Origin: Candidatus Dormiibacterota bacterium
GTDB taxonomy: Bacteria; Chloroflexota; Dormibacteria; UBA8260
Direction of reading: 5' to 3'
Assembly: GCA_955652455.1 (NCBI GenBank)
Contig: CATPBU010000157.1
Coordinates: forward strand, 1-7,144
Length of the DNA: 7,144 bases
A model generated the notes under the pieces. That model ran no database searches. It had not been told where the DNA came from and saw only the letters and a program-made list of their open reading frames with translations. Positions within the stretch are counted from its first letter, which is position 1. Each line of letters begins with the position of its first letter. The position numbers and the translations under genes were made by a program. Positions 649-1,452 of this stretch are shown here, piece by piece.

Positions 649-1452
649 ATGGCGGTCGAGGTCACCGATGAGCGCATCGCTGCCGCGGCGGTGCGCCTCC
701 ACGAGGGCGGGTGGTGGTTCACGCCGCGTCAGCTGTACTACGCCGTGTGCGCCGACGTCGAAACAGCGCCGGTGCGCATCGCCAGCGGCGAGGTGGGACT
801 CGGGCTGGTGCTCATCCTGGTCGGGATCATCATCGCCAACCGGGCTGTGCTGATCGTGCTCGGCGGCCTCGGCGTCCTGCTCGTCGCCCTCGGAGCGATC
901 ACCCACCTCCAGGAGCGCCGACCGCCGCCACTTGCCCGGCTGCTGGCGATCTCATTCGCCGACTTCGAGGCACAACTCTCTGCCGGCGGCCACTCCCCGC
1001 CCGGGCTGATTACCACCACCCAACCGCCACGGGCCGAGGCCGGGTCCGGCGCACCCGTGGTGATCTGCGACCGCGCAGAGACGGCTGCCATGCTCATCGC
1101 CAACCGCGAGCATCTCGGCGACGCGCGCGTGCTGACGGCCGGCGAGGTGCCTGTCCACGTCGACGGTGTCACGGTGGCGGTCATCCACGACTGCGATCCC
1201 GCCGGGTGCGCCATCGCCGTCGACCTCCGCGACCGCGGCGCCGACGTCGGCGACGCCGGCATCAACCCCGGTGAGATCGCCGGCAAGCGCGCCCAGCTCA
1301 TCGAGGGGGCACCGGCGCGCCTGCCGCGCGACCTCTCGGGTCACCTCACCGTCCAAGAGCTCGACTGGCTGCGCAGCGGCAAGCGCCTCGAGCTGGCGAC
1401 GGAGACGCCGGAGCAACTCGTCGTCCGCGTCCGTGCCGCGATAACTGGCTAG
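649..1452 (+). CDS. Membrane-hairpin protein with Spo11/topoisomerase VI-A-like motifs (RQLYY plus TOPRIM-like DCDPAG); function unknown
   Basis: The protein has 267 aa from ATG 649. The open frame extends upstream to 343, but that stretch runs antisense through the thioesterase gene. Residues 1-37 read as a small helical unit ending FTPRQLYYAVCADVE (24-38), which resembles the catalytic (S/T)xRDxYY segment of Spo11/Top6A winged-helix domains. Two hydrophobic helices follow, about 48-63 and 66-84, separated by NR, and predict a membrane hairpin. A basic/proline linker (QERRPPP, 88-94) leads to a soluble domain with APVVICDRAETAAMLI (135-150), LTAGEVP (162-168) and VAVIHDCDPAGCAIAV (176-191). 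That order (strand plus acidic residue, T-G-x-P turn, hydrophobic strand plus DxDPxG) is the TOPRIM order of Top6A/Spo11, with Asp141 where Glu is usual. The tail (205-267) has no motif I recognise. No Shine-Dalgarno is visible. Codon use matches its neighbours. The motif match was made by eye; a simple membrane protein of unknown function is the alternative. Confidence 0.6.
   Translation: MAVEVTDERIAAAAVRLHEGGWWFTPRQLYYAVCADVETAPVRIASGEVGLGLVLILVGIIIANRAVLIVLGGLGVLLVALGAITHLQERRPPPLARLLAISFADFEAQLSAGGHSPPGLITTTQPPRAEAGSGAPVVICDRAETAAMLIANREHLGDARVLTAGEVPVHVDGVTVAVIHDCDPAGCAIAVDLRDRGADVGDAGINPGEIAGKRAQLIEGAPARLPRDLSGHLTVQELDWLRSGKRLELATETPEQLVVRVRAAITG

Follow-up and report, generated by a model that had tools for sequence, protein, structure and literature searches.

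Spo11/Top6A-type proteins are DNA-cutting machines that act in topoisomerase VI, in the formation of meiotic breaks, and in Wadjet/MksG systems. JetD is the nuclease of Wadjet, MksG is the nuclease of MksBEFG, and Mini-A proteins are lone viral Top6A-like proteins, in which we know of no membrane segment. One gene in a 7,144-nucleotide stretch of Dormibacteria DNA (the window, meaning the whole stretch analyzed) appears to join a tyrosine helix and a TOPRIM domain of this kind to a membrane segment. Does its product cut DNA while anchored in the membrane, or is it a Spo11/Top6A-like subunit turned to a new use? If the combination is real, either the module can leave DNA topology or DNA is cut at a membrane site, and among open-licence papers we found none on a membrane-anchored Spo11/Top6A-like TOPRIM protein. 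Our tentative answer, held with slightly less than even confidence, is a Dormibacteria membrane protein of the Spo11/Top6A/JetD TOPRIM type that has been repurposed as a switch or docking platform and is not a topoisomerase. Its assignment to this type is supported by fold and, by sequence, through a sister branch. The genes of the window are as follows:

1-588, minus strand: acyl-CoA thioesterase, start of gene
649..1452, plus strand: candidate gene for a 267-aa membrane-anchored TOPRIM protein of Spo11/Top6A type (open reading frame; 114 relatives; conserved start, length, and motifs in alignments A1 and A2)
1449-2711, minus strand: crotonyl-CoA carboxylase/reductase Ccr
2754-4058, minus strand: MFS transporter
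4112-5674, minus strand: PEPCK, ATP-type
5842-6804, plus strand: branched-chain aminotransferase
6916-7143, minus strand: glycerate kinase, piece

A sequence-only reading of the window had picked out the open reading frame and three sequence blocks, and we confirmed the frame, its coordinates, and the blocks RQLYY (727-741), VVICDRAETAAML (from residue 137), and HDCDPAGC (1186-1209). The LTAGEVP segment that it also singled out is not conserved among relatives in alignment A1. Around the gene, the window encodes mostly metabolic enzymes (thioesterase, Ccr, PEPCK, and others) as well as the MFS transporter, and PADLOC gave no matches for the six window neighbors or for four proteins encoded beside relatives. 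The stop codon of the candidate gene (1450-1452) overlaps that of the convergent ccr gene (1449-1451).

The protein belongs to a real, conserved, and unnamed bacterial family. At E ≤ 1e-3, 115 database proteins match, the window's own included, which rules out chance, and 112 of them span at least 93% of its length. Start, length, and motifs are all conserved in alignments A1 (32 of the 115) and A2 (112 of the 115, omitting P0080, P0082, and P0111). Invariant in A2 are Q28, L29, Y30, Y31, C34, G52, F106, H180, D181, P184, G186, G204, P207, G220, A221, A223, W240, L241, G244, R246, and E248, with R27 and D141 each at 90% or more. A profile of 112 of these proteins reached 137 database proteins at E ≤ 0.01 (120 listed). 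We compiled a window branch of 144 rows (142 database proteins plus L108 and L109) and, with 53 rows of a sister branch, a set of 197 rows, from which eight database proteins, mostly fragments, were omitted. The sister rows comprise 20 of zinc-ribbon type (18 paralogues plus the genes of L099 and L100) and 33 of Tyr type. Seven of the 115 matches carry an organism name, six of them Dormibacteraeota, Dormibacter, or Dormibacteria and one Candidatus Binatia (P0114); P0003 and P0007, both with Dormibacteria-type names, are 79% and 77% identical to the window protein. Three named genome contigs encode the gene (67, 64, and 61% identity), that of Candidatus Amunia macphersoniae ranking first. Within the phylum of G001, presumably Chloroflexota, profile A3 had matches in 18 of the 301 genomes searched (E ≤ 0.01), some of which, such as L022 and L023, resemble chance, and profile A6 had matches in 27 of 400 genomes at E ≤ 1e-5. 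No relatives were confirmed in viral contigs.

A neighborhood survey, proposed in the sequence-only reading, covered ten window-type loci (the window, G001, G002, G003, G048, G057, G122, G154, G218, and G226). Ccr is present at eight and an acyl-CoA mutase at seven, either directly adjacent or at a distance of one to two genes, and on the opposite strand at every occurrence. The window and the G003 locus stop short of the expected mutase position, G226 is represented by a contig of 3.3 kb, and the G057 locus has neither gene. Judged by this synteny, the gene is apparently inherited vertically in Dormibacteria as a single gene. The parts of the protein on which the argument turns are these:

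649..786, plus strand: residues 1-46, with predicted helices 7-18 and 26-37 resembling the first two of the Top6A catalytic-tyrosine domain (AlphaFold model)
727..741, plus strand: R27-Q-L-Y30-Y31, putative equivalent of R102-E-L-Y105-Y106 of M. mazei Top6A (of 144 rows, R in 140 and K in 3, Y30 in 144, Y31 in 143)
787..837, plus strand: predicted transmembrane helix 1, about residues 47-63 (hydropathy; model helix 47-62)
844..903, plus strand: predicted transmembrane helix 2, about residues 66-85, then HLQERRPPPLAR (hydropathy; model helix 65-88)
1030..1449, plus strand: predicted TOPRIM domain, residues 128-267
1069..1071, plus strand: D141, equivalent of Top6A E202, the first TOPRIM acid, Asp for Glu (D in 143 and E in 1 of 144; alignment register)
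1186..1200, plus strand: H180-D181-C-D183-P, equivalent of Top6A T253-D254-G-D256-P (H180 and D181 in 144/144, D183 in 106/144; alignment register)
1258..1269, plus strand: G204-I-N-P207, equivalent of Top6A GLQP(SDI) (G204 and P207 in 197/197 rows; alignment register)
1378..1392, plus strand: G244-K-R-L-E248, proposed equivalent of Top6A G-K-K-A-E342 and JetD G-x-K-L-E (G244 and E248 in 144/144)

The predicted structures lend good support to a TOPRIM fold like that of Top6A, Spo11, and JetD. The earlier suspicion of a TOPRIM-like domain was upheld, since the fold is found in the models and the closest solved structures by VIA-align are of this type. For the window model, the first nine rows are all Top6A, MksG, JetD, or Spo11, with MksG the best and 122-139 residues aligned across them, including the C-terminal extension. 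For the model of a relative, P0160, the first ten rows all belong to the same families, which score 9.7 to 7.0 against 6.5 for the next fold. These ranks place the protein within that TOPRIM group, not in Top6A over JetD. Foldseek puts JetD first among PDB structures for each of the two models (E 4.1e-3, prob 0.93; E 1.6e-2, prob 0.99). No E-value falls below 1e-3 for either model, the top ranks also hold unrelated folds (RecR and YckF for one model, POMGNT2 for the other), and a search against viral models returned no matches at E ≤ 1e-3.

The sequence evidence for kinship with Top6A comes from profile comparisons. The Top6A profile is thin, consisting of six sequences (Neff 1.9), of which three are haloarchaeal and plasmid-borne (L116-L118) and the others are pieces from M. 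mazei, M. jannaschii, and S. shibatae. In hhalign, profile A4 (28 rows, 13 of them window-type) scored 38.9 against it, A5 (15 rows, sister branch only) 39.0, and all 197 rows 33.1, with probabilities of 48, 46, and 20%. Against 60 column-shuffled Top6A profiles (mean 13.4-14.0, sd 1.9-2.2, maximum 21.0), these three lie 9.6 to 13.5 standard deviations above the shuffles. The 53 sister rows alone scored 37.4 (shuffled maximum, 26.0), whereas the 144 window-branch rows alone scored 17.8, within the shuffled range (mean 14.2, sd 3.2, maximum 24.3), and 17.6 from residue 101 on (shuffled maximum, 24.2); the short best stretch of the window branch falls on template columns 253-268, the region of D254-D256. 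Profiles A2 and A3 scored 17.6 and 19.0, values without shuffles of their own. When the 197 rows were restricted to residues 101 on, the score was 29.1 against a shuffled mean of 12.5 and maximum of 18.4 (n = 100). Their N-terminal profile alone scored 16.4, inside the shuffled range (mean 11.3, sd 2.2, maximum 17.4; n = 100), yet it aligned LYY on LYY. Because the sister branch stands above the shuffles and the window branch alone does not, the sequence link to Top6A runs via the sister branch, members of which (L013 and L014) profile A3 matches at E 4.1e-18 and 1.8e-16. The Top6A homology first suggested from the sequence thus holds for the wider and sister profiles and not for the window branch by itself, and kinship with Top6A in particular is plausible.

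Pfam, NCBIfam, PHROGs, and PADLOC gave no convincing match to the window protein (the one Pfam match has an E-value of 0.28), and the PDB gave no sequence match above chance. Weak, scattered family matches were all that 32 members scanned singly returned (best E, 0.028), and profiles A2 and A4 in family and PDB searches found just two membrane-segment matches (E 4.5 and 8). TOP6A-Spo11_Toprim (PF21180) exceeded its cut-off in none of 3 genomes and in none of a further search's 301 genomes, which are of the phylum. Two matches below threshold were seen in the 301 genomes, one of which (E 0.0071) is sister member L005, the same gene as L014. The B subunit, already noted as missing from the neighborhood, was not found in genomes of relatives either: at E ≤ 0.1, the Topo-VIb transducer domain (PF09239) had no match in any of 18 carrier genomes of unstated completeness, all from relatives of the window, and the control was positive in 4 archaea.

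The membrane hairpin proposed between RQLYY and the TOPRIM domain is borne out by hydropathy in all 144 window-branch rows and by the two predicted helices. Mean Kyte-Doolittle hydropathy peaks at 2.8 across 19 residues in the window protein, and a stretch above 1.6 occurs in 144/144 window-branch rows and, in the sister branch, in 19 of the 20 rows with a zinc ribbon and in 9 of the 33 of Tyr type; sister members L106 and L107 leave no space for the segment. The AlphaFold models of the window protein and P0160 have two helices followed by a long helical hairpin. Where the Top6A recognition helix and wing would come, both models run into these hydrophobic helices and show no evident complete winged helix for DNA binding. 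A small domain beyond the hairpin, completed by helix 103-112, is conceivable, and the N- and C-terminal parts probably both face the cytoplasm.

How much of the Top6A active site does the protein retain? In M. mazei Top6A, as reported (PMC13040014), the tyrosine is Y106, the metal acids are E202, D254, and D256, and an R102-E342 electrostatic clasp restrains the tyrosine. The window family resembles Top6A/Spo11 in its TOPRIM domain with a C-terminal extension and an R-x-L-Y-Y helix in front, and it has, in the same order, the first acid, the D254 equivalent, GLxP, and, by motif, G-x-K-x-E. It differs in having Asp for Glu at the first acid, a variable second Asp of DxD, a length of 267 aa against about 365, and no transducer domain in any of the 18 carrier genomes. 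Only extended low-threshold alignments and the N-terminal one pair R27 with R102 and Y31 with Y106, at low confidence, and equivalence of the tyrosine helix is plausible. We propose E248 as the E342 equivalent from its motif and its place in the succession of secondary-structure elements. The tails of the six Top6A proteins read GKKAE, GKKSE (two), EKKSE, GVRAE, and KAKLE, the M. mazei E342Q construct having Q at the E342 position, and 11 of 13 JetD sequences fit a loose form of the tail motif; a tail-only profile (residues 232-267) scored 9.3 in hhalign in the wrong register and did not reproduce the E248-E342 pairing.

Among the 144 window-branch rows, residue 27 is R in 140, K in 3, and G in 1, residue 31 is Y in 143 and H in 1, and residue 183 is D in 106, S in 27, G in 7, A in 3, and T in 1. 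Four residues had been named at the outset as ones to check: Tyr31 (143/144), Asp141 (143/144), and Asp181 (144/144) are conserved and Asp183 (106/144) is not, so the YY pair is kept while the second D of DxD varies. All six Top6A-equivalent residues are present together in 104/144 rows, the window protein included. The TOPRIM acids of the window protein are D, D, D, and the branch does not keep the Top6A pattern E, D, D, its first acid being D in 143 and its third in 106 of the 144 rows. On a quick 87-row tree with trait columns blanked, in which 36 of 84 inner branches are weakly supported, D183 changes at least seven times, and the deepest window-branch rows carry it. In the cleaved E342Q complex with Ca2+, E202 and D256 are reported to lie too distant to touch the metal in its inner shell (PMC13040014), and plant SPO11-2 is reported to have DxN instead of DxD (PMC11302465); activity therefore cannot be judged from D183 alone.

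The sister branch separates from the window branch with an SH-aLRT of 99 on the 87-row tree, and those of its members that carry an organism name belong to Roseiflexus, Roseiflexaceae, and Chloroflexus. Of the 33 Tyr-type rows, 31 have Q in place of D141 and 33 have S in place of D183, with Y31 retained in 33, E248 in 32, and R27 in 29; the tyrosine, arginine, and glutamate thus persist where Top6A-like metal chemistry seems unlikely. That Gln is directly followed by an Asp (CQD) in 29 of 53 sister rows, and this Asp might take the role of first acid there. The 20 zinc-ribbon rows retain Y31 in 3, R27 in 3, and E248 in 2, together with D181 in 19 and H180, G204, P207, and W240 in all 20. The zinc-ribbon paralogues have lost 9 of 25 conserved positions, including R27, Y31, and E248 (hypergeometric P 0.037, counted as one event), which is suggestive of a loss of precisely the Top6A-type positions, independent pairs being few.

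With its Tyr-bearing and degenerate paralogues and its asparagine-synthase-like genes, the sister operon offers a testable route to function. Tandem zinc-ribbon and LYY paralogues (LFY in L106 and L107) occur at all seven loci L101-L107, the first paralogue of L107 being cut by the contig end and L104 being the query locus. All seven also encode a ~195-aa DGS-repeat protein that ends in a Gly/Asp tail and an asparagine-synthase/GATase protein, with a cupin-like protein at five and a ~475-aa protein of no known family at four (one a fragment). The operon, at L104:8447-14962 for example, comprises cupin-like, zinc-ribbon TOPRIM-like, LYY TOPRIM-like, ~195-aa, asparagine-synthase/GATase, and ~475-aa. 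At L099 (7340-12760) and L100 (7371-12103), a single gene with zinc ribbon, LYY, and TOPRIM lies between two asparagine-synthase-like genes, which brings such genes to 9/9 sister loci examined. The ~195-aa protein has one match in each of six operon-type genomes and none in nine window-type genomes or in the single-copy genomes G306, G334, and G369, so the window branch seems to work without the sister system. In a defence search with ten operon proteins, only the synthase proteins had matches, which were QueC- and Csx19-like. Two candidate identities were set aside: the name "ABC transporter permease" that the zinc-ribbon paralogue bears in public Roseiflexus records (P0155 and P0180, relatives of L104:9176-10282) is unsupported by family evidence, and an ATP-grasp identity for the ~475-aa protein, an impression from sequence, found no Pfam or PDB support. 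Loci L102 and L103 (genomes G055 and G201) have three consecutive family copies, two of them apparently of zinc-ribbon type, and a DSFG C-terminus is shared by the product of the L100 family gene and a 200-aa neighbor protein at L099.

We favor repurposing since no part that would bind DNA is evident, several lineages erode the metal acids but keep the Tyr, Arg, and Glu, and the neighbors seen are mostly metabolic. In such a protein, the first two N-terminal helices would resemble the catalytic-tyrosine helix pair of Top6A, and a helical hairpin would enter the membrane at the point where the Top6A chain goes on to form a recognition helix and wing, leaving the tyrosine helix and TOPRIM domain both at the cytoplasmic side beside the membrane. 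Two protomers may pair through their TOPRIM domains, with D181 binding a divalent metal and a phosphate-bearing ligand. The R27-E248 pair and Tyr31 could then clamp the N-terminal helix onto the metal site, much as R102 and E342 hold the tyrosine back in topoisomerase VI, and the output might be that of a membrane-bound switch or docking platform. Against repurposing, the 104/144 rows with all six residues and the presence of D183 in the deepest rows fit a cutting enzyme, and, by analogy with the E202/D256 distance and the SPO11-2 DxN, a varying D183 need not abolish activity. The Asp of CQD, the window-branch profile at shuffle level, and the conceivable small domain with helix 103-112 count on the same side.

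Such an enzyme would be an active membrane-tethered Spo11-like transesterase, in which Tyr31 attacks DNA in the groove of a TOPRIM dimer, with metal on D141, D181, and D183 and without a B subunit. We regard this as somewhat unlikely. Beyond the 104/144 rows, it is favored by the presence of Tyr31 in 112/112 sequences of A2 and by mouse SPO11, reported to cut without partners (PMC11922746), so that a lone A-type subunit can cut. It fits less well with the predicted membrane segment in place of an evident complete winged helix, the repeated changes of D183, the Asp at the E202 equivalent, the loss of most metal acids in the sister branch, and a window neighborhood of metabolic genes and a transporter. 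Mini-A is likewise reported to be a lone A-type homologue (PMC11302465), a likeness drawn by description. A more specific proposal, which we consider unlikely, is a lone A-type enzyme in the cytoplasmic membrane of Dormibacteria whose Tyr31 introduces programmed breaks or nicks into DNA at the membrane; in the sister branch, the same protein would have become the membrane component of a modification system of asparagine-synthase-like kind, with one dead and one Tyr-bearing paralogue.

A hydrolytic JetD/MksG-like nuclease, in which the TOPRIM metal site would cut DNA alone and the tyrosine helix would merely be a clamp, is very unlikely in our view. The structural ranks of JetD (Foldseek, both models) and MksG (VIA-align, window model) and the likeness of the JetD tail motif to G-K-R-L-E248 speak for it. 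The Foldseek rank had prompted us to consider JetD membership, which we dropped when the profile score was not clearly above shuffles: against 13 JetD sequences from genomes of the same phylum, hhalign gave 16.2, 19.6, and 23.0, within or barely above the maxima of 12 shuffles (20.1, 18.0, and 22.6). JetD_C (PF09983) had no Pfam match to the window protein at E ≤ 1 and was absent from the families listed for 32 members, and, with regard to an operon with the SMC genes JetA/B/C, the window neighbors are metabolic genes plus a transporter, PADLOC being silent on six of them and on four proteins beside relatives. The window family further differs from JetD/MksG in its membrane segment and from MksG in its tyrosine candidate, which MksG is reported to lack in its 5Y-CAP-like domain (PMC10123090). 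The least probable reading, an unrelated Rossmann-like membrane protein with LYY and HDCDP motifs by convergence, would account for the lack of convincing family or PDB-sequence matches, the mixed Foldseek ranks with no E below 1e-3, the window-branch and N-terminal scores inside shuffled ranges, and hhalign probabilities of 20-48%, but it is opposed by the same families topping VIA-align for two models (P0160, 9.7 to 7.0 against 6.5), wider profiles 9.6 to 13.5 sd above shuffles, motifs that match in both order and register, and the strong window-to-sister link.

Motif scans of viral contigs for Top6A were also tried and gave 73 stretches, mostly one unrelated phage open reading frame; of two further scans, one found none and another found one partial Top6A-like open reading frame. 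The DADPHG scan (L026-L098) brought up a recurring phage open reading frame of ~206 aa (RTDINLMSKVDADPHGI...) that is apparently unrelated to TOPRIM proteins.
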